The position numbers were made by a program, and so were the translations under genes. DNA of 31,100 bases from a virus. Where the stretch lies: the IMG/VR virus record IMGVR_UViG_3300032083_000797, positions 1 through 31,100 of that record; one strand, 5' to 3'. Positions 2,366 to 19,616 of this stretch are shown in pieces. Below the pieces are notes generated by a model. That model had not been told where the DNA came from. It made no database searches and saw nothing but the letters and a program-made list of their open reading frames with translations. Numbering within the stretch: the first letter of the stretch is position 1; the number at the start of each line of letters is the position of its first letter.

Positions 2366-2602
2366 ATGCACAAAGACTTCAATTATTACCTAGCCGAAGA
2401 TATAACCATCAGAGTTGAAGTTTGGTATCGTGAATGCGATGGCGAATTTATCATTGATGAAATAACTGCCACCAATCCTGATAATGGAATGGATATTTTT
2501 GGCGAACTTAAAGGTCTGTACGAAAGAAAATTCAGCAGTTGCGAATTTATTTCTGTGGCAGATAAAATCACAAATCAAGCTGAAGAGTATTGGAATTTAT
2601 AA
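2366..2602 (+). CDS. Hypothetical protein
   Basis: 78 residues. I chose the ATG at 2366 because ACGGAGAAA lies just upstream, the same ribosome binding motif used by the small minus-strand genes near 7.4-7.8 kb; an upstream in-frame start at 2291 lies before the promoter and lacks such a site. The protein is mixed alpha/beta and acidic, beginning MHKDFNYYLAEDITIRVEVW and ending EEYWNL, with no membrane or signal segment. I do not recognise a family. It sits between the resolvase and the nuclease and its stop abuts the nuclease ATG, so it is probably co-expressed with DNA metabolism genes. Confidence 0.75.
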   Translation: MHKDFNYYLAEDITIRVEVWYRECDGEFIIDEITATNPDNGMDIFGELKGLYERKFSSCEFISVADKITNQAEEYWNL

Positions 2603-3388
2603 ATGACTACACCTCTGCAAAAAATCAATAAGAAGGCGCATAGCGCATCATCTATTAACAAGTTTATCGCGCAACCTGCGTCATGGGTTATGAGCTACGT
2701 TTATGGCGTATATGGCTCTGGAAGCCCTGCGATGAGCCGTGGTAAGGCGGCAGAGGTGGGCTATGACCATTACATCAATGGCGGTGAGTTTGGCGGTAGC
2801 TTAGAGAGCGCAGTATCTGCCGCCACACGCTATTACAACAAGGATACCGCCTTGCAGGGCTGTGATGAGGCAAAACGCGAAAAGGAGCGCAATGCCTTAC
2901 ACGGTTTTATAGAGCAAACAATCGAGGCTTTTGAGCCGTTTGGATTTCCGACATCATCTCAAAACAAATTGGAGTTAGTGTTAGAAGGCGTGGCAGACCC
3001 GTTTGTGGGTTATGACGACTACTGCTTTGCTCCGCAGGGCGATGACCCAAGACCGATTAGTATTGATCTCAAGACTACGCACAGGTTACCGAGCGATATT
3101 AGTGATGCCCACAAGCGACAGCTATCGCTGTATCAGGCTATGAAGCCTGACCATAAAATTATGATTGCATATTGCACATCAAAGAAGAATAAAATTTTTA
3201 CACTTGACAGTGACGAGGCAGCTGAAATATTAAATGAGATTAGATCAGCGGCTCAGACTGTAGAGAGATTATTAGCAATTTACGATGATCCGAAGGAATT
3301 GAAAGGATTATACGCGCCAGATTTCAGTAGTTTTTACTGGAGTGATCCCATTTCGCGTACAGAGGCTAAACGCATTTGGGGTTATTAA
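2603..3388 (+). CDS. PD-(D/E)XK nuclease (RecB/Cas4-like exonuclease)
   Basis: 261 residues with the order of a phage RecB-type nuclease: SASSINKF...W near residues 14-28; the MSRGKAAE motif at 44-51; D132 in GVADPF; D155 and K157 in SIDLKTTH, the (D/E)xK of the metal site; and Q173 in RQLSLYQ. Such enzymes degrade or resect DNA ends with Mg2+ and usually pair with an SSB or annealing protein in phage recombination. The next gene is indeed a probable ssDNA-binding protein. The start directly follows the preceding stop (TAAATG) with only a weak upstream site, which suggests coupled translation. No helicase domain is attached. Polarity and substrate cannot be read from the sequence. Confidence 0.85.
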   Translation: MTTPLQKINKKAHSASSINKFIAQPASWVMSYVYGVYGSGSPAMSRGKAAEVGYDHYINGGEFGGSLESAVSAATRYYNKDTALQGCDEAKREKERNALHGFIEQTIEAFEPFGFPTSSQNKLELVLEGVADPFVGYDDYCFAPQGDDPRPISIDLKTTHRLPSDISDAHKRQLSLYQAMKPDHKIMIAYCTSKKNKIFTLDSDEAAEILNEIRSAAQTVERLLAIYDDPKELKGLYAPDFSSFYWSDPISRTEAKRIWGY

Positions 3389-3401
3389 AATCAATTAGCC
3401 C

Positions 3402-3430
3402 AAACTTTAAACTTTAAACTTTAAAACTTT
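3402..3430 (+). repeat. Four tandem AAACTTT units
   Basis: Three perfect head-to-tail 7-base units (3402-3422), one extra A, then a fourth unit (3424-3430). It lies in the 60-base gap before the SSB-like gene, just 5' of its ribosome binding site (GAAAGGAAA). It is a simple tandem repeat; a regulatory role is possible but not shown. Confidence 0.9.
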
Positions 3431-3448
3431 TCTTGAAAGGAAAAAACA

Positions 3449-4003
3449 ATGCCATTAAATTTTAACACAAATGACGGTTCAGCAGGAGCTTACATCAGAT
3501 TCATGCCATCAGTAGGCGCATGGATGCTAGACGGTGACGAGATCGAGGTGAAGCAGTTCATCATGGACTTAGAAAACATCTCAACGGGATGGGGTAAGTT
3601 CGAGGCAGGGCAAGCACCATTATGGGTGTGGGATGCTGATCTCTCTACTCTTGCACCAAGACCTGCCGAGGATGGATTCAAGCGTGGATTCAAGGTCAAT
3701 ATGTTTAGCAAGACTAGCTTTGGCGATGAGCCAGTGCGTGAATTTGCTACGACAGGAACTGGACCGCAAATGGGACTTCAGGCGGTTTATGCTCAGTATG
3801 AGAAGGAGGCTCCAACAAACGAGGGTAAAGTTCCCGTGGTTGAGTATTCTGGGTCAGTGCCGACAAAGGTTGGCAAGGGCAATACTCGTATCCCAACACT
3901 TAAAATTGTTAAGTGGGTCGCAAGACCTTCAGAGTTACAGGCAGAGGCGGTTTCTTCCCCTACCATCTCTGCACAGCCAGATGATATTGAAGATGAATTT
4001 TAA
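3449..4003 (+). CDS. Probable single-stranded DNA-binding protein
   Basis: 184 residues. The body is rich in beta-type segments and aromatic residues (GAYIRFMPSVGAWML, PLWVWDADL). The C-terminal 30 or so residues are Pro/Ser-rich linker ending in the acidic tail DDIEDEF with a terminal Phe. That tail is typical of phage and bacterial SSBs, where it recruits partner enzymes. I cannot see a textbook OB-fold motif, so the call rests on tail, size and position: directly after a recombination nuclease and before the primase-helicase. The start has a clear AAAGGAAA site. It would coat ssDNA during replication and recombination. It could instead be another acidic-tailed replication accessory. Confidence 0.6.
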   Translation: MPLNFNTNDGSAGAYIRFMPSVGAWMLDGDEIEVKQFIMDLENISTGWGKFEAGQAPLWVWDADLSTLAPRPAEDGFKRGFKVNMFSKTSFGDEPVREFATTGTGPQMGLQAVYAQYEKEAPTNEGKVPVVEYSGSVPTKVGKGNTRIPTLKIVKWVARPSELQAEAVSSPTISAQPDDIEDEF

Positions 4004-4017
4004 TATCTGAAGGCTCT

Positions 4018-4053
4018 AAGCGGCTAGGTGTTCTCTCCGTCATCTAGCCGCTT
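4018..4053 (+). terminator. Hairpin between the SSB-like and primase genes
   Basis: A perfect 10-bp stem, AAGCGGCTAG (4018-4027) with CTAGCCGCTT (4044-4053), and a 16-base loop, followed by TTACCTTTAT. The U-run is weak, so this is more likely an attenuator or partial terminator, or an mRNA 3' end stabiliser, than a complete stop. It lies 14 bases after the SSB-like stop codon and would reduce expression of the primase-helicase relative to the SSB. Confidence 0.6.
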
Positions 4054-4087
4054 TTACCTTTATGCGGGGAGGCTAAGGAGAGACAAT

Positions 4088-5959
4088 TTGACAGCAGATA
4101 TAATAAACAAGGCACTTGAAGTTGCAGAAAACTATCCTGTATTTCCATGCAACAGCAAAAAGCAGCCCCTATGCAAGTGGCGAGAAGCCGCAACGCAAGA
4201 CCCAAATAAAATTGAGCTAATGTTTTCTAATCCCAATGCCAAGTTAATTGGTATGCCAACGGGATACGCTTCAGGGATATCCGTCATCGACATTGATGTT
4301 AACAACGGCAAGCAGGGCAAGAAGTGGCTTGAAGACAATAGAGATAAATTAGGAAATACGCTCTACGCTCAGACGCAGTCGGGCGGTTGGCATTTTTACT
4401 ATAACCATAAGGATGGGCTTGCCAATGCGGCAGGATTAGGCAATGGGGCGGTGGACATACGCGGTGAAGGCGGATATGTGATCACAGCTCCCTCAGACGG
4501 CTATAAATTTTTAAATGACGAGGATTTAATTGATTTCCCTGACTTTCTGTTAGGGTCATCACTTCCCGAAGTTTTTACCCCTAATAACACTGAGCCAGTT
4601 ACCGATATGTTCGGAAGCATAACTGACGGGCGTGAAAAGTACATGAGCGATCTGGTTTATGCGAGCATAATGAATTACCGCAAGGATAACGGCTCTCTGC
4701 CATCCGAAGAGTACATGGTTGAGAATGTGTGGACTATTTACGCATTAAAGGTGAAATCACGCCACAGTGACGGCTTAGAGGCTGAGGATCGCGGCATTAC
4801 GATGTTCATGAAGAAGGTGCGCTCAACTTTAGCCAAGTTAAGCCGTAATGATGCGCCTGTGATTGGCGAGTTTGACGATCCGGAGCCGATGCCTGAGTAT
4901 GTGGAAGTTGATGATCAGGGCGAGCGAAAATTTGATATACCCGTGATGTTTAATAGTGACATCAAAGATATGCCACCCCCGTCTTTTCTTGTTGCGCCCT
5001 ATATACTTGAAAATAGTTTTGCAGTTCTGTTTGGCGCACCCGCATCATACAAGTCATTCCTGGCGTTAGATTGGGCGTTAAGCATCGCTCATGGCGTAGA
5101 CTGGAATGGGCGGGCGGTGAAGCAGGGTTGGGTCGTGTATTTAGCCTTAGAGGGTCAGCAGGGCTATAAGCAACGGCAGTTGGCTTGGCACAATGAAAAT
5201 GGCTTAGACATGAATGACGCACAGCTTGCGACCGTGACTGTGCCTGTTTGCCTTGCTGATCCTGCACAGGATGGCGCAGATATTTATAAGCTGATGGAGA
5301 GTCTAGATTACTCATTAAAGGATAAGGATATAAAGCTAATCGTAATCGACACGTTAGCTCGATCCTTTACAGGTCACGAGGAGAACTCGTCTTTATGCAT
5401 GGGCGTATTCTGTAAAAATACATCTTTGTTAATGCAGAGATATGACTGCGCCTTGTTAACTGTGCATCATTCGGGCAAAAATTTTGAATTAGGCTTAAGA
5501 GGAAGTTCAGCCCTCCAAGGCGCAGCTGATTCTACGTTTAGTATAAAACGTCAGGGCGATAGCATGGTGACTTGCTTGAAGACCACTAAGCAAAAAGACA
5601 CTGAGGAGGCAGAGCCATTATTTTTAGAGGCACGAGAAGTTTCTTGGCACGAGGCATTAGGTGTTGAGCAGACATCGCTAGTGCTTGATCCGAGAGATGC
5701 GCCACCGAAGAAAATAAAAATGTCGGACGATCAGAGGGTCGCATTAAATATTTTAGATAGCCTGCTGCAAGATCAAAATGCGATTGAAAAAGATGGGAAT
5801 GGACTATATGGAATTAGAGAAAGTTTGTTCCGAGATGTTGTCGTAAATAGCCTTCCAAATTTAGAAAAACGTCAGGCTTGGCACAATTTCAAAAAACGCA
5901 TGGAAAAAGCCGAATTGATTAAAGTTATCAACGGCTTAATCAGTAAAGTTAATGTATAA
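4088..5959 (+). CDS. Bifunctional Prim-Pol primase / RepA-type helicase
   Basis: 623 residues from a TTG at 4088, chosen because AAGGAGA lies 7 bases upstream; the longer in-frame GTG at 4028 falls inside the preceding hairpin and lacks a site. The N-terminal domain is a Prim-Pol primase/polymerase: VIDIDVNNGKQG with metal ligands D68 and D70, then GGWHFYY. The C-terminal domain is a RecA-fold hexameric helicase like RepA/AAA_25: Walker A GAPASYKS (316-323), Walker B LIVIDT with D421, then LLTVHHSGK and RGSSALQGAADS sensor motifs. It would prime and unwind at the phage origin. A dense repeat cluster follows the stop codon directly, as an origin beside its replication gene would. No DNA polymerase gene is visible, so elongation must come from the host or from outside the window. 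Confidence 0.9.
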   Translation: MTADIINKALEVAENYPVFPCNSKKQPLCKWREAATQDPNKIELMFSNPNAKLIGMPTGYASGISVIDIDVNNGKQGKKWLEDNRDKLGNTLYAQTQSGGWHFYYNHKDGLANAAGLGNGAVDIRGEGGYVITAPSDGYKFLNDEDLIDFPDFLLGSSLPEVFTPNNTEPVTDMFGSITDGREKYMSDLVYASIMNYRKDNGSLPSEEYMVENVWTIYALKVKSRHSDGLEAEDRGITMFMKKVRSTLAKLSRNDAPVIGEFDDPEPMPEYVEVDDQGERKFDIPVMFNSDIKDMPPPSFLVAPYILENSFAVLFGAPASYKSFLALDWALSIAHGVDWNGRAVKQGWVVYLALEGQQGYKQRQLAWHNENGLDMNDAQLATVTVPVCLADPAQDGADIYKLMESLDYSLKDKDIKLIVIDTLARSFTGHEENSSLCMGVFCKNTSLLMQRYDCALLTVHHSGKNFELGLRGSSALQGAADSTFSIKRQGDSMVTCLKTTKQKDTEEAEPLFLEAREVSWHEALGVEQTSLVLDPRDAPPKKIKMSDDQRVALNILDSLLQDQNAIEKDGNGLYGIRESLFRDVVVNSLPNLEKRQAWHNFKKRMEKAELIKVINGLISKVNV

Positions 5960-5966
5960 GGTGAGA

Positions 5967-6176
5967 ACGTGTACGCTATAAATAAATATAAACAGCAATT
6001 CAGTGATTTTTTAAGTGCGTACACGGGGCGTACACGTTTAACAAAATCCATTAAAAACAATGTCTTAGATAGCGTAAACGTGTACGTTTTAGGCAGACGT
6101 GTACGTTTTGACGTTTACGCGTCTAGCGTACACGTCCGTACACGTCCCCCTATAAGGGGGCGTGGACGTTTACGTC
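5967..6176. repeat. Iteron-like repeat cluster, candidate replication origin
   Basis: About ten copies or near copies of the 9-base palindrome-like unit ACGTGTACG / CGTACACGT: 5967-5975, 6018-6025 (8 bases), 6029-6037, 6073-6081 (variant CGTAAACGT), 6078-6087, 6097-6106, 6111-6119 (variant ACGTTTACG), 6127-6135, 6137-6145, and 6166-6174 (variant). Two perfect 10-base copies are tandem at 6127-6146 (CGTACACGTC twice), one helical turn apart. They are followed by a hairpin, CCCCCT-ATA-AGGGGG (6146-6160), and a second palindrome, GACGT-TT-ACGTC (6165-6176). Reading the rest of the window, I found only isolated single partial matches. The position immediately after the primase-helicase supports an origin or initiator-binding site (inference). 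A 75-codon frame through the cluster looks like translated repeats. Confidence 0.65.
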
Positions 6177-6221
6177 TAGATGATTACATCGTATAAAAAA
6201 ACAGATTGGAGAATAGAATAA

Positions 6222-6518
6222 ATGTTGTGGGATAGCAAAAATGCAAAGAGAGAGAGAAATCTTAAAATATTAAAAATGATTGACGATGGAAATACGGTTT
6301 CGGCAATAGCAAAAAAATTTGGTATTTCGAGAACGCGCGTTCATCAGATAAATCAGGCAAAAGTTTTTTGGGATAAAAAACAGAAATTGTATAACGCAAT
6401 AAAAACGAGCCATTATTTTTTTCCTGAAAAATCACTTGAGGATTTGGCAGATCACTTTCATATGCCAGTACCAACAATAAAAAAAATTTTAGAGGAGTAC
6501 TACAATGACAAAGACTAA
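6222..6518 (+). CDS. Helix-turn-helix DNA-binding protein
   Basis: 98 residues with two HTH-like segments. The first, at 24-46 (TVSAIAKKFGISRTRVHQIN), closely resembles sigma region 4 or resolvase-type HTHs. The second, at 71-92, has the pattern SLEDLADHFHMPVPTIKKIL. The N-terminus is basic. The ATG is preceded by TTGGAGAA. The start lies 46 bases after the iteron cluster and the end overlaps the next gene by 14 bases. Possible jobs are iteron or origin binding, or control of the early-late switch; the sequence does not choose between them. Confidence 0.75.
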   Translation: MLWDSKNAKRERNLKILKMIDDGNTVSAIAKKFGISRTRVHQINQAKVFWDKKQKLYNAIKTSHYFFPEKSLEDLADHFHMPVPTIKKILEEYYNDKD

Positions 6519-7104
6519 AAGAAAATCACGAGATGACTTAGAAGCAATCGGAAAATTTGATCCGTACATTGAGCGAAACAAGTGGGATCACGATATTATT
6601 CACGGGGCTTTAAAGCCTTATGATAAACTTGTGAGCGACTTGGAGATCCGATGGGGATATGACCGGCTACCTCAATTAGTATCGCCTGAGACAGCCGCAA
6701 AGTTCCAGACCGCCAAAGCTAAAATGGATGCGGCTATAGCCTATGAGAAAAACCCCCAGGAGGCAGTTAACAAGATAGGCGTGATGATGCGAGGTTGGCA
6801 AGCGTTAGAGAAGGAGGCTATGAAGAACGGTCATAAGCCGTTTCCGCCTGACGTGTGGGTAGCCTGTGTTGGTGAAGAGCATGGCAAGCTGCCCTTAGAA
6901 ATTGCGATTGTGAAGGATAGTGCTGACGCATCGCTAACTAAGCTAACTAAAAAGAAAGGCATTACAACTTATAGTTTGGTTGAGATCGCCAGAATTGTCA
7001 GATTATTCGAGGGTCAGAAAAAAGAAATCCCAAAAATCAAGGAATTGTTTCCAGATAGCGAAATAAAAAAAGTAGCGTGGAAGGATGACGAGATACCGTT
7101 TTAA
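6505..7104 (+). CDS. Unknown protein with an SSB-like C-terminal tip
   Basis: 199 residues, charged and without membrane or signal segments. The N-terminus is basic (TKTKRKSRDD) and the middle is helical. It ends WKDDEIPF, almost the conserved tip of bacterial SSB (DDDIPF in E. coli, family knowledge), the peptide through which SSB recruits PriA, RecO, RecQ, exonuclease I and others. The rest does not look like an OB fold to me. The gene overlaps the HTH gene and is the last of the replication operon, with a terminator 82 bases after its stop. It may dock on host SSB-interacting enzymes or be a diverged ssDNA-binding protein. I do not recognise the family. Confidence 0.75.
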   Translation: MTKTKRKSRDDLEAIGKFDPYIERNKWDHDIIHGALKPYDKLVSDLEIRWGYDRLPQLVSPETAAKFQTAKAKMDAAIAYEKNPQEAVNKIGVMMRGWQALEKEAMKNGHKPFPPDVWVACVGEEHGKLPLEIAIVKDSADASLTKLTKKKGITTYSLVEIARIVRLFEGQKKEIPKIKELFPDSEIKKVAWKDDEIPF

Positions 7105-7232: not shown

Positions 7233-7367
7233 CTATAGTAATGAGCCACCTAGCAGAATAAGAACTGCCATTGAAAATAGGAAGGCGGCAAAGGCGAAAC
7301 TTCCTAATATAAATTCGATTAAGGACATTTTAAAGTTTGCCCTGATTAATTTTATTGCTTCTAACAT
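7233..7367 (-). CDS. Small single-pass membrane protein
   Basis: 44 residues, beginning MLEAIKLIRANFKMSL, then a continuous hydrophobic segment of about 25 residues (FILGSFAFAAFLFSMAVLIL) up to the end GGSLL. The basic N-terminus suggests N-in topology. The ATG has ACGGAGAAA upstream, the same motif as in the next two genes. It is the last gene of the leftward small-gene operon, 3 bases from the plus-strand terminator's U-run. No family is recognised. Tiny membrane proteins in phage early regions often affect host membrane functions, but nothing here shows that. Confidence 0.6.
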   Translation of the reverse strand: MLEAIKLIRANFKMSLIEFILGSFAFAAFLFSMAVLILLGGSLL

Positions 7368-7389
7368 TTTGTTTCTCCGTTTGGTTAAT

Positions 7390-7563
7390 TTAAGAGTTAA
7401 GGTGCTTATAATTCTGGATAGTGTCGTGCGCTGATTTTAACCACTGATGATCTATATCACTCAGCATACAACTTGCCATTGGATGTTTTTGCTCATATTC
7501 AATTAATGCTTTGGCATTTTTTACGCTACCTAATGCTTTAAATTTCTCTAGTAACTTGTTCAT
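7390..7563 (-). CDS. Small hypothetical protein
   Basis: 57 residues, beginning MNKLLEKFKALGSVKNAKAL and ending NYKHLNS: basic, helical N-terminal half, one Cys, no membrane segment. The start is well supported by CGGAGAAA and by a 58-base leader that is also found before the next upstream gene. No family is recognised. Confidence 0.6.
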   Translation of the reverse strand: MNKLLEKFKALGSVKNAKALIEYEQKHPMASCMLSDIDHQWLKSAHDTIQNYKHLNS

Positions 7564-7617
7564 TTTATTTCTCCGTTTTGTTGTGGCATTATTGCCTTTA
7601 AGATTGTTTAACCTTAT
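7560..7617 (-). repeat. Repeated gene leader, copy A
   Basis: An approximately 58-base segment ending at the start codon of the 57-residue gene. It is nearly the same as 7787-7846: the ribosome binding site and AT spacer are identical (shared TTTATTTCTCCGTTTTG on the plus strand), followed by a GGCA-N4-TGCC inverted repeat and a TTAAGATT block. It reaches into the stop codon of the preceding gene. Confidence 0.85.
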
Positions 7618-7790
7618 TGACTTGTTTTCTCCCCCTTTACAACTCTATGTGAGTTTGGACCACATTTGAAAGAGGCGTTTTTCTCGTTGCAAAACTTTTC
7701 TGCTTCTTCACGAGTTTCAAATTCAGCGACAACATCATCCCATGTCATGTCACCACTTGCACCAAAATTATTTACTGTAAATTTAGTCAT
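7614..7790 (-). CDS. Small hypothetical protein
   Basis: 58 residues from the ATG at 7790, which has CGGAGAAA upstream; a longer in-frame start at 7892 would run through the leader repeat and is rejected. It begins MTKFTVNNFGASGDMTWDDV, has an acidic helical middle (ETREEAEKFCNEKN) and two Cys, and ends GEKTSQ. The pattern of a short beta strand followed by a helix that begins TREEAEKF resembles small phage proteins of unknown function. The stop lies inside the leader of the next gene. Confidence 0.65.
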   Translation of the reverse strand: MTKFTVNNFGASGDMTWDDVVAEFETREEAEKFCNEKNASFKCGPNSHRVVKGEKTSQ

Positions 7791-7846
7791 TTTATTTCTC
7801 CGTTTTGTTTGTGGCATCATTGCCGTTAAGATTTTTTTAATCTTAT
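7787..7846 (-). repeat. Repeated gene leader, copy B
   Basis: The second copy of the leader at 7560-7617, differing by a few substitutions and short indels. It adds a clear AAGATT-N5-AATCTT inverted repeat. The two copies precede unrelated small proteins, so the leader rather than the gene was duplicated. A shared regulatory or mRNA-stability role is inferred. Confidence 0.85.
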
Positions 7847-7851
7847 GCGAA

Positions 7852-8357: not shown

Positions 8358-8741
8358 TTGACAACGAAAAAAAGACCAGTTGGAAGACCCAGTTTTATGC
8401 CTACTGACGAGCAACGCGCAAGCGTTTATGATATGGCGAAGTATGGCGTTCCGCATGAACATATCGCCTCTACTATTGGCGAAAATGGTATTAACTCAGA
8501 CACCTTAAAAAAACACTTCAGCGAAGAGTTGCTGAGAGGTAAAGCCGAGGCAAGCGCGGCTATTGGTCAAACTCTCTTTGAAAAAGCTAGGAATGGTTGC
8601 TCCAGTAGCTTGATTTGGTGGTCAAAATCGCAGATGGGGTGGACAGGTGAGCAGAAAATTGATTTAACCAGTTCTGATAAATCTATGACACCTCAAGTCA
8701 TTGAGCGGGTTATCGTGAAAGATGATAAAGATGGCTGTTAG
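8358..8741 (+). CDS. Terminase small subunit-like protein
   Basis: 127 residues from a TTG at 8358 with GTAAGGAA upstream. It begins TTKKRPVGRPSFMPTDEQR, followed by an HTH (YGVPHEHIASTIGENGINSDTLKKHF), then AEASAAIGQTLFEKARNG and SLIWWSKSQMGW. This is the layout I know from phage homeodomain-like small terminases, which recognise the packaging site and hand DNA to the large subunit. The acidic C-terminus (IVKDDKDGC) fits a partner-binding tail. It is the first gene of the virion operon, but the large subunit does not follow it as usual and is not visible anywhere in the window. It could instead be a related DNA-binding protein. Confidence 0.65.
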   Translation: MTTKKRPVGRPSFMPTDEQRASVYDMAKYGVPHEHIASTIGENGINSDTLKKHFSEELLRGKAEASAAIGQTLFEKARNGCSSSLIWWSKSQMGWTGEQKIDLTSSDKSMTPQVIERVIVKDDKDGC

Positions 8742-10899
8742 TATTGATCCAGACAGTAAAATTTTAGGCGTTTTAAACTTTATAAAAGACGCATCTAGTG
8801 GCGTTCATCAAAACCCGTGGGACAATATACGCGATAAGGTTGGCGGCTTACTTTACAATACGTTGGTTGAGCCACAGGAATACCAAACACCTGTATTTGA
8901 TACTGGGCAGACCCAACAATTCGCAGATACTCATAACGCTATGCTTCCAGAGCGAGGCTCTAAGCAATCAATGTTACTACCATTCGGTTATGACGAGCAG
9001 GGCAATATAGAACCCGCTATTCCATCATTAGTGCGTGATGTAGGGCTTGGTGCTTTTGGATTGCTTGGTGAATACGAAAAAGCCCAGACAGGTACAGGTT
9101 ATGGGTCATTGGATGATATAACGCCACAGGAAACCGCTAATAGTATGCAAGGATTGCTTGAGGTGATGACGGGTGGCTCTGTTACTTCTGCGCCTAAAGG
9201 TGCGTTGCGTACTGGCTTTGCGAGGGACAACGTTAAGAAGACAACAGGCTTGTTGAATGATGTTGATGATTTAGGCTTCTATTCTCCTACAGAGCGATTA
9301 GCAGCTAACCTACAGCCAAAAGGTACAGGTCAACAGTATCTAGGAATACTTTCAAAAGGCGATGGTCAAGGCTCAAGAATACAAGAAGAAATGGCTGATA
9401 TGGGGCTTGATACTTGGCTACAGGGCAAGGGTAAGGTAAGCCGTGATGAGGTTCTTGATTATATCGGTGATAACAGGTTGCGGTATGGTAAGGAGGTTTT
9501 GAAATCAGGAAATCCTTATCCGTATAGAACGAGTGACGATTGGCAAGATGCTGTTATGAGTGCAGAACGTAGAGGAGATTTTGATGAGGCACAAAGAATA
9601 ACCGAAGCGTGGGAAAGTTCGGAGGGGTTTGGCTCGGCAGGAGATACTCGATACCAAAAATACTCCCAAGAGGGCGGCACAAACTACCAAGAGGGATTGT
9701 TGACTGTTCCAGAAAGAAATAAAATAACTTACAATCAAGATAATGTGTTGCCGTTAGACGCAACGCATCCTGCGGCAAGTGACCCTGATAGATTTTGGTA
9801 TTTTGAAGCACCAGATAGAGGTATTGATAAGCAAGTATTTCAAATTCCCAAGAGTAGATTTAACTCTACTGGTGAGGTATCAAGGCAAGAGGCTAAAGAT
9901 TATATCATTAGGTCTAAACAACCTGAAATGTCGCGTACAGAAAACTATTCTTCCCCCCACTACGATCAAGCCAACATCGGCTTAACAACCCGCACACAAT
10001 CCTTCAACACGCCAGACGGTAACAGCGTTCACCTAATGGACGAGCTACAGAGTGATTGGCATCAAGAGGGTAAGAAGAAGGGGTATAGAATTGATGCGGA
10101 ACAAGAGAAGGCTAGGTTAAAGGCTGAACAAGAAAATATAATAGAAGAAGCAAATAAATATACATCGGTTGGTCAGGACGCACCAACTAGGATAACGGAC
10201 GCTTATACAGCTAACTCAAATAGATTGGCGCAATTAGAAGTACAAGAAATAAGAGGTGTACCCAACGCACCCGCAAAGCAATCATGGATGAACCAAGGCA
10301 TTAAAAAGGAAATCAACCAAACTATAGCAGATGGCAGAGATTACTTTGCGTGGACAGGTGGAAAGCAACAGATTGATAGATATGAAGAGGCAATGCGTCA
10401 AAATGTAGATGAGATTATTTATGAAGTTGGTGATGATGGCAAATACTTTGTAGATGTTAGTAAGAATAATTCACTTGTTTATGAAAATAGCGGTTTAAGT
10501 ATAGAAGAAGTTGAGAAGATTTTTGGGAAAGATATTGCTAAACAAATAAAAAATAATAATGGTGAAGTTGCTTCAAAACTAAGACCAGACGCTAGAACTT
10601 TATCTGGTGATGATTTAGCAATAGGCGGTGAAGGCATGAAATCTTTCTACGACAAGGACGTAAAAAAGCGCACTGAAAAGATTATTAAACGCCTTGATCC
10701 TAACGCCAAGGTTGAAGTTATAGAGTTAGATAACGGCAATAAAGTTTGGGGTGTTAAGATTACTGACAAGATGCGCTATAAAGTAAAGAGCGAAGGTATG
10801 CCGTTATATTCCATCGCCCCAATCGCAGGTGCAGGATTACTTGGCGCAGGAATGATGCGACAGGAAGAGCAACAGCCACAACAAGGAATACTTAACTAA
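8722..10899 (+). CDS. Large polyvalent-type virion-region protein, function unknown
   Basis: 725 residues; the ATG at 8731 is a near-equal alternative start. The gene overlaps the small terminase gene by 20 bases. It has a polar, low-complexity N-terminal 300 residues, then a block I recall from large polyvalent proteins of podoviruses and mobile elements: HLMDELQSDWHQEGKKKGY (437-455), then a W...KKEINQTIADGRDYFAWTGGKQQIDRYEEAM segment in three conserved parts, a GEGMKSFYDK motif and a C-terminal MRYKVKSEGMPLY. The last 30 residues include a hydrophobic Gly/Ala stretch (IAPIAGAGLLGAGMM) and a Gln-rich end. The biochemical activity of that block is not known to me. Its position and size fit a protein packaged in, or injected from, the virion (inference). 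Confidence 0.7.
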   Translation: MIKMAVSIDPDSKILGVLNFIKDASSGVHQNPWDNIRDKVGGLLYNTLVEPQEYQTPVFDTGQTQQFADTHNAMLPERGSKQSMLLPFGYDEQGNIEPAIPSLVRDVGLGAFGLLGEYEKAQTGTGYGSLDDITPQETANSMQGLLEVMTGGSVTSAPKGALRTGFARDNVKKTTGLLNDVDDLGFYSPTERLAANLQPKGTGQQYLGILSKGDGQGSRIQEEMADMGLDTWLQGKGKVSRDEVLDYIGDNRLRYGKEVLKSGNPYPYRTSDDWQDAVMSAERRGDFDEAQRITEAWESSEGFGSAGDTRYQKYSQEGGTNYQEGLLTVPERNKITYNQDNVLPLDATHPAASDPDRFWYFEAPDRGIDKQVFQIPKSRFNSTGEVSRQEAKDYIIRSKQPEMSRTENYSSPHYDQANIGLTTRTQSFNTPDGNSVHLMDELQSDWHQEGKKKGYRIDAEQEKARLKAEQENIIEEANKYTSVGQDAPTRITDAYTANSNRLAQLEVQEIRGVPNAPAKQSWMNQGIKKEINQTIADGRDYFAWTGGKQQIDRYEEAMRQNVDEIIYEVGDDGKYFVDVSKNNSLVYENSGLSIEEVEKIFGKDIAKQIKNNNGEVASKLRPDARTLSGDDLAIGGEGMKSFYDKDVKKRTEKIIKRLDPNAKVEVIELDNGNKVWGVKITDKMRYKVKSEGMPLYSIAPIAGAGLLGAGMMRQEEQQPQQGILN

Positions 10900-18347: not shown

Positions 18348-19616
18348 ATGGCAATGAACTTAAATTTAATACCAACACCGACATTAGAGGCAGAGCAGTT
18401 TAGTGTTCCTCCTTATCAGGGTCAACAACAGCCTATGCAACAGCCTATGCCTGAACAGCCTATGCAACAGCCTCAAGGCTTACTAGGTCGCATTGGCGCA
18501 GGTATTAAGCGTAGTGTGCAAGACCCAAACTTTATGGATCGTCTGACTATTGGCTTGGGCGGTATGACTATGAATCCTAACGAAGCTCTTATGGGTTTGG
18601 CGCAGAATAGGATTAATCAACGTCAGAAGTTGGGGCTAATTAACGAGCAGAAAAATAGAACGATTGAAGCCTTGAAGAGAATGAATACGCCACAGGCTAT
18701 GAGAGCGTTGCAGTTTTTAGATTCAGGTGGCGATGTTGGTAATGCCTTGAGTATGGCTTTTGAGAAGCCAAAATCTAGTATAAAAATTATTGAAGGAAAG
18801 GTAGTTGATCTTACAGACCTAAATAATCCTAAAGTTGTTTACGAAGGTGGCAAGGATAGTAATATAGAAATTATTGACGGAAAGGCAGTTGATCTTACAG
18901 ACCCAAATAATCCTAAAGTTGTTTACGACGGTGGCAAAACTACTGCTCGTGAAGCTAAAATACAAGATTATATGAACACATATAATATCACTAGGGAAGA
19001 GGCAGTTTCTTTTATGTCTAACCGATTCAGACAAGAAGTGGATACTTTTGGAAATCTCAGAATAATAGATACACTTACTAATAAAGAAGTATCTTCAACA
19101 AAACCTAAAATTGACGAAGTTGATAAGACTGTTGAGAGTACGATTGATCAGACAGGCTATGACTTCCCTGCGTTATTTACAGGAGAGAGCCTAATTGGTA
19201 GTGTTGCTCAACCCGTCTCAGGTATTTTCGATATAGACAGTCCTTATCTTGAAAAAAGAAAAAAGGCTGAAAATTACCTTAATATAACAAACCAACAAAC
19301 TATGGCGGCATTAAAAAAGTCTACAAGACCTTTGGCGAGAGAGTACGAAGAAATTTCTAACATATTGCTAAAAGGTGGAGTTACAAAGACATCACGAAAC
19401 GCTGCCAGTCAAGCGCAAGAAGTAATTGATCTGTTGACTAAACAACTTGACTTAGAAACTAAATCGGCAACATATGACTCTACTGGACAGGCTTTAGGGC
19501 AGTCGAAAGAGGCTATAGATGAATTAAATAATGTTATTCAAAGGTATAAAAACATTTTAAGTGGATTAAAACCTAAACCCAGAAGGTCTTTGACTGAAAT
19601 AATGGAAGCGAGATAA
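18348..19616 (+). CDS. Virion-region protein with N-terminal QPM repeats and an internal duplication
   Basis: 422 residues. The N-terminus has QQPMQQPMPEQPMQQPQG, a Gln-Pro-Met repeat, followed by GLLGRIGAGIKRSVQDPNFM and a conserved-looking MDRLTIGLGGMTMNPNEAL. Residues about 145-200 are two 28-residue tandem copies of IxIIxGKxVDLTDxNNPKVVY. The C-terminal part is helical and charged (ALGQSKEAIDELNNVIQRYK), with coiled-coil character. The start has TTAGGATAA upstream. Base composition becomes AT-rich from about 18.75 kb onward. It is probably an internal or ejection protein; no family is assigned. Confidence 0.7.
   Translation: MAMNLNLIPTPTLEAEQFSVPPYQGQQQPMQQPMPEQPMQQPQGLLGRIGAGIKRSVQDPNFMDRLTIGLGGMTMNPNEALMGLAQNRINQRQKLGLINEQKNRTIEALKRMNTPQAMRALQFLDSGGDVGNALSMAFEKPKSSIKIIEGKVVDLTDLNNPKVVYEGGKDSNIEIIDGKAVDLTDPNNPKVVYDGGKTTAREAKIQDYMNTYNITREEAVSFMSNRFRQEVDTFGNLRIIDTLTNKEVSSTKPKIDEVDKTVESTIDQTGYDFPALFTGESLIGSVAQPVSGIFDIDSPYLEKRKKAENYLNITNQQTMAALKKSTRPLAREYEEISNILLKGGVTKTSRNAASQAQEVIDLLTKQLDLETKSATYDSTGQALGQSKEAIDELNNVIQRYKNILSGLKPKPRRSLTEIMEAR
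18784..18937 (+). repeat. 70-base direct repeat in frame (28-codon period)
   Basis: 18784-18853 and 18868-18937 are near-identical, 84 bases apart, so the reading frame is kept and the protein gains a 28-residue tandem repeat. Few substitutions separate the copies (GAA/GAC, GTA/GCA, CTA/CCA), which points to a recent duplication. Confidence 0.95.

Follow-up and report, generated by a model that had tools for sequence, protein, structure and literature searches.

Introduction

In the SaPIs, the Rep protein uses its C-terminal domain to recognise iterons that lie just past the 3' end of its gene (Ubeda et al. 2007, as cited in PMC7581432), and the isolated C-terminal domain of SCCmec Cch2 binds its putative origin (PMC7581432). 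For the Gram-negative PICIs, a rep-ori segment taken from E. coli allowed a plasmid to replicate, and replication suffered when the origin was lost (Fillol-Salom 2018, PMC6092414). In the V. cholerae PLE the RepA DNA-binding domain and the origin covary and are exchanged as a module, only matched pairs replicate, and an origin-cutting nuclease is the proposed selective force (PMC8263062).

The window analysed here is a whole IMG/VR virus contig of 31.1 kb. As in the SaPI/PICI rep-ori regions, its candidate origin, judged by the position of a repeat cluster, is located directly 3' of the initiator-helicase gene, short iterons flank AT-rich DNA, and the C-terminal domain of the helicase is the proposed origin reader. 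SaPI Rep is of the Cch AAA+ initiator-helicase type, whereas the helicase of the window has a RepA/RecA-fold AAA_25 domain fused to a Prim-Pol domain. A further difference is that SaPI/PICI satellites use helper-phage structural proteins, whereas the window phage encodes its own portal, capsid (major head), tail-fibre and other virion proteins. Short words in both orientations, irregular spacing and AT-rich gaps match the SaPI/PICI origins, while the cluster does not fit a classical iteron plasmid with tandem, evenly spaced iterons of 17-22 bp in the same direction. The suggestion, made from the sequence alone, of an iteron-like origin after the primase-helicase draws good support from the comparative data; the candidate origin is of the SaPI/PICI kind in its layout and not of the classical 17-22 bp kind.

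Covariation of a DNA-binding domain with its origin, and their exchange as a module, is shared with the PLE, whose initiator differs in not being described as a helicase, in its N-terminal DNA-binding domain, and in having iterons of about 30 bp in two types instead of dozens of words. The RepA-RepB'-RepC system of RSF1010 (IncQ) combines the same helicase fold with a primase; there a separate RepC binds the iterons, whereas in the window phage the proposed reader is fused to the helicase, and no RepC-like protein was matched among the replication-region proteins searched. The pRN1 ORF904/Bordetella phage BPP-1 type (PMC4234260) likewise has a single protein that combines a Prim-Pol domain, a helicase and a winged helix at the C-terminus, with an origin element directly 3' of the gene, and differs in its SF3 helicase and stem-loop of about 100 nt, where the window has AAA_25, a 15-nt hairpin and many short repeats. 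No description of this phage module with a residue-level code was found in the open-access literature searched, which is not proof of absence. What appears to be new is the layout in tailed phages with a RepA-fold primase-helicase, the dozens of words and the residue-level code.

The cluster is considered, with a probability of about 85%, to be the origin of the phage, with the adjacent primase-helicase as the initiator that reads the repeats through its C-terminal winged helix. The features of the region are summarized in Table 1.

Table 1. Features of the proposed origin region, in window coordinates
Feature	Position	Strand	Basis or remarks
Iteron-like cluster, proposed replication origin	5967..6174	.	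Site counts, shuffles, comparative layout
CGTNNACG site starts	5968, 6018, 6029, 6073, 6079, 6098, 6112, 6127, 6137, 6161, 6167		
Perfect 10-bp tandem pair CGTACACGTC	6127..6146	.	
Hairpin CCCCCT-ATA-AGGGGG, 15 nt	6146..6160	.	Without T tail
AT-rich stretch between repeats, candidate melting site	5976..6017	.	AT profile
Second AT-rich stretch between repeats, candidate melting site	6037..6072	.	AT profile
Primase-helicase, 643 aa	4028..5959	+	Prim-Pol 29-171, AAA_25 306-485 (Pfam), C-terminal winged helix
C-terminal winged-helix domain, residues 567-643, proposed repeat reader	5726..5956	+	AlphaFold; window/L005 divergence
Block without alignable L005 DNA: C-terminal domain, repeats, HTH ORF	5704..6504	.	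blastn
HTH protein, 98 aa, alternative binder	6222..6518	+	Not found in five closest relatives
Conserved 199-aa protein closing the exchanged block	6505..7104	+	No Pfam or PHROG match

Repeat cluster

The cluster starts 8 bp past the stop codon of the primase-helicase gene. Where the sequence-only reading had noticed about ten repeat copies, 11 CGTNNACG sites in both orientations were counted, seven of which are the exact words CGTGTACG/CGTACACG; only four more CGTNNACG sites occur in the rest of the record. Dinucleotide shuffles gave a mean of 3.6 CGTNNACG sites for the whole record. When the 221-bp region was shuffled 2000 times, such sites numbered 0.48 on average and never more than 4, and exact words at most 2 against the 7 real ones. 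No 7-mer with more than four copies was found in other 250-bp stretches of the record, which agrees with the earlier statement that the unit is not clustered elsewhere. The repeat units are 8-9 bp long and irregularly spaced at 6 to 50 bp. The tandem pair and the hairpin of the sequence-only reading were both recovered at the expected places. AT content reaches 70-85% in parts of the two AT-rich stretches; as in SaPI/PICI origins, AT-rich DNA lies between repeat groups, though here as two gaps between uneven groups.

As an intrinsic terminator the hairpin was ruled out, a T run following it on neither strand. The region searched gave no Rfam match and no tRNA. Cumulative GC skew, proposed earlier as a check, has no extremum at the cluster and turns only near 1.5-2 kb and 29.5-30 kb; because these turns coincide with changes in gene direction, the skew is uninformative as an origin marker here and speaks neither for nor against the cluster.

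Primase-helicase

The best solved structure for the core of the protein is the RSF1010 RepA hexameric helicase (1olo/1nlf/1g8y), with Foldseek E 2.4e-11 for 1olo_B and phmmer E 0.0053 for 1g8y, a likeness that concerns the fold. AlphaFold predicts residues 567-643 as a winged helix (pLDDT about 88-95), in the order helix 567-581, strands 586-588 and 594-597, helices 598-608 and 615-627, and strands 631-634 and 637-640. Helix 615-627 is the proposed recognition helix. For the corresponding domain of a related helicase, L174, the structure matches were mostly winged-helix proteins (CRP, forkhead, MukF, ORC); at Foldseek E 0.04 or worse and a best Z of 7.8, these matches support the fold only. 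Pfam searches with isolated C-terminal domains gave weak HTH matches and no confident family, and a PDB sequence search with a C-terminal profile returned nothing convincing.

Comparison with the nearest relative

The nearest relative, L005, shares 92% DNA identity with the window at 2592-5703, has no alignable DNA at 5704-6504 and shares 76% identity from 6505 onwards (blastn). The helicase cores are almost identical, and the last 80 or so residues are about 40% identical. CGTNNACG is absent from the corresponding place in L005, where AAGGACA forms another array with seven copies (p below 0.01) and a GC hairpin of similar kind is also found. The alignment break together with the new C-terminal domain and the new word indicates that domain and repeats were exchanged together. 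Absence of the repeats from close relatives had been named as evidence against an origin; L005 does lack CGTNNACG, yet it carries a different array beside a different C-terminal domain. Since the word of the window follows this helicase in one genome only, the case for the window rests on the layout and on the contrast with L005.

Layout in related helicases

The comparison drew on 80 viral loci encoding related helicases, supplemented with annotated phages and plasmids; removal of near-duplicates left 57 non-redundant helicases. A significant 7-mer cluster within 350 bp past the helicase stop codon was scored. Such a locus-specific cluster was found in 34 of 56 non-redundant loci, against 1/53 upstream, 1/171 random and 3/57 end-of-gene controls; the other 22 of the 56 gave no significant cluster by the 7-mer test. 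The words vary by locus (TGCGGAA, GGGGACA, CGGTACA, TGAACCA, ACTTCCG, TGGGACA, GTCCGAA and others). Hairpins with a TATA apex are present in 13/56 downstream regions, compared with 3/168 random and 1/51 upstream regions.

Among isolates, the array after the helicase is GCGGAGAT x12 in Rhizobium phage RHph_N65, GCGTGACA x12 in Rhizobium phage 16-3, ACTACAAA x9 in Roseobacter phage CRP-811 and CGGACA x6 in Vibrio phage 1.076.O. Salicola CGphi29, Idiomarinaceae 1N2-2 and Alteromonas PB15 also have an array there, and the helicase-array module is found in Caenibius plasmid p1, whose circular record of 38 kb also carries genes for a terminase, a capsid protein and an integrase. Repeats after the helicase were not found in Mycobacterium phage Klein and ct76p945. 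On the sequences compared, hundreds of phages and satellites have the array-after-helicase layout, each with its own repeat word.

A genome-contig scan for close relatives returned only a weak 29-residue match. As a search probe for collections the repeat word alone was discarded, its matches being mostly unrelated and the word not diagnostic by itself: such a helicase was held by 1/119 stretches with a CGTACACGT pair and by 4/78 with a AAAGTGGG triple, and among these helicase-bearing stretches the array stood right after the stop codon in L285 only. In two other loci, L247 (about 12130) and L261 (about 9893), AAGTGGG clusters lie some 470 bp upstream of the 5' end of the related helicase gene.

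Covariation of repeat word and C-terminal domain

Over the 57 loci, motif similarity followed C-terminal similarity when the core was held fixed (partial rank correlation 0.36, 0/500 permutations) and did not follow core similarity when the C-terminus was held fixed (-0.07). For the 27 loci with an alignable C-terminus, the recognition helix gave 0.44 after control for the core and for the remaining part of the C-terminal domain (0/1000 permutations). Shared ancestry is only partly controlled for by these permutations. The cores of L188 and L204 are nearly identical while their helices and words differ (GTAGACG, GGGACA), and L188 and L205 have a common helix and word despite more distant cores. 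In these comparisons the repeat words follow the predicted recognition helix, not the helicase core.

The covariation extends to one residue and one base. The C-terminal domains of L164, L166, L170, L174, L179 and L186 are 89-97% identical to that of L174 and vary at residue 53 of the L174 domain model, which is within helix 45-62 of the predicted winged helix. Helices with YW-G-R go with nine ACCACA and 0-1 ACTACA, those with YW-L-R with nine ACTACA plus four ACCACA, and those with YW-S-R (L164/L166) with a mixed array of 4 ACTACA and 5 ACCACA. This mixed array, found where the variable position is Ser, may represent a step in a change of specificity.

Satellite-like elements of E. coli

The C-terminal end and array of a 'helicase RepA family protein' were matched in 552 of 5426 E. 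coli genomes, in satellite-like elements. The 16 copies read divide without exception: those with Asn in the helix have 6-8 AGTGAG repeats and those with His 6-8 AGTGGG repeats; the 16 were hand-picked from a ranked list, several being near-identical, and represent five distinct helix versions. Two of these five differ by Asn/His alone, within K-N/H-FRRW. Asn-adenine and His-guanine are common contacts, and the chemistry of the pairing fits. The helicase-array module is carried by elements with AlpA, Icd-like, DUF4222, helicase RepA, SSB and capsid genes in L219-L234 and about 550 E. coli genomes. Some E. coli loci keep DUF4222 with a different DNA primase family protein, which indicates that the replication module itself is exchanged.

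Proposed mechanism and alternatives

The initiator and origin are best read as a self-contained module, in which the helicase-primase would be loaded, through its C-terminal domain, onto the iterons that follow its gene. Binding of the CGTNNACG repeats by the winged helix, for which the evidence is indirect because it comes from the covariation of word and helix, would bring RepA-fold helicase subunits together to either side of AT-rich DNA. There the strands would open and the helicase ring assemble, the fused Prim-Pol domain would prime, perhaps at the hairpin with the TATA apex, and primers would be extended by host or other proteins as the origin fires. Word and reading helix would evolve as a matched pair exchanged as one block, and it is proposed that for this reason each phage starts only its own origin.

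The repeats might instead be operators for the HTH protein encoded at 6222, or for the primase-helicase itself, and the region a regulatory hub, not an origin. The HTH ORF has a DNA-binding fold and lies inside the block exchanged together with the repeats, but no counterpart was detectable in the five closest relatives (L005, L132-L135), and the HTH protein was rejected as a conserved binder. Arrays also accompany helicases whose neighbouring small ORFs are different or missing, and relatives such as L005 keep the layout despite missing the HTH ORF. The words covary with the helicase recognition helix, and seven to eleven dispersed sites would be a large number for a single operator. We regard the operator explanation as improbable, and the neighbouring HTH gene as unlikely to encode a conserved repeat binder. 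An origin between the replication enzyme and an HTH gene had been envisaged from the sequence alone; the comparison supports the placement after the primase-helicase and points to the C-terminal winged helix of that enzyme, not to the HTH protein, as the probable conserved reader.

Covariation shows recognition, not purpose, and the packaging gene cluster begins about 2 kb downstream of the repeats, so binding by the C-terminal domain could instead serve copy control, partition, packaging or the exclusion of related phages, with replication starting at another place. Against this, the proposed binder forms one protein with the helicase and primase, the array contains AT-rich gaps and hairpins, and plasmid replication from this layout is documented for an E. 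coli PICI (PMC6092414); such a purpose is judged slightly less probable still. A functionless expansion of repeats, by chance or mutation, is conceivable for one non-coding gap in one genome, and the relatives lacking a significant cluster might be held in its favour. It is refuted by the control regions of the same loci, with no cluster in any of 41 other non-coding gaps or of 56 regions that follow other long ORFs, and by the conservation between L170 and L186, in which 0/64 repeat bases and 35/111 flanking bases differ; its probability is negligible.

Beyond the origin reading for this phage, we lean, with clearly less assurance, towards a large class of replicons, not described so far, in phages and satellites. 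In this class a RepA-fold (DnaB-like) helicase would read its own origin, a fast-changing winged helix and its iterons would co-diversify and be exchanged as a block, and dozens of mutually exclusive words would obey a residue-to-base code (Asn to A, His to G at one position). The layout points from sequence alone to a probable origin and its proposed reader in many uncultured and cultured phages, and a layout stated as unique to PICIs is extended to tailed phages, whose helicase has another fold. RepA-fold helicases would no longer need an initiator and a loader of separate kind. The loci also offer initiator/origin pairs as a natural library, in which some pairs are distinguished by a single helix residue and a single base, of use for protein-DNA recognition, origin exclusivity between co-infecting elements and origin-directed nuclease targeting.

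Other features of the window

No Pfam or PHROG family was matched by the 725-aa ORF at 8722-10899, which adjoins a small-terminase-like gene and may be a divergent large terminase. The 422-aa ORF at 18348-19616, for which no family match was obtained, contains an 84-bp tandem repeat at 18779-18937 (1.9 copies, 93% matches). Near-identical leaders (ATTTTATTTCTCCGTTTTGTT-TGTGGCAT-ATTGCC-TTAAGATT) are located within 7365-7850 upstream of small minus-strand ORFs, with copies at about 7563-7620 and 7791-7845 and a shorter one near 7368; the element is also present in L005.
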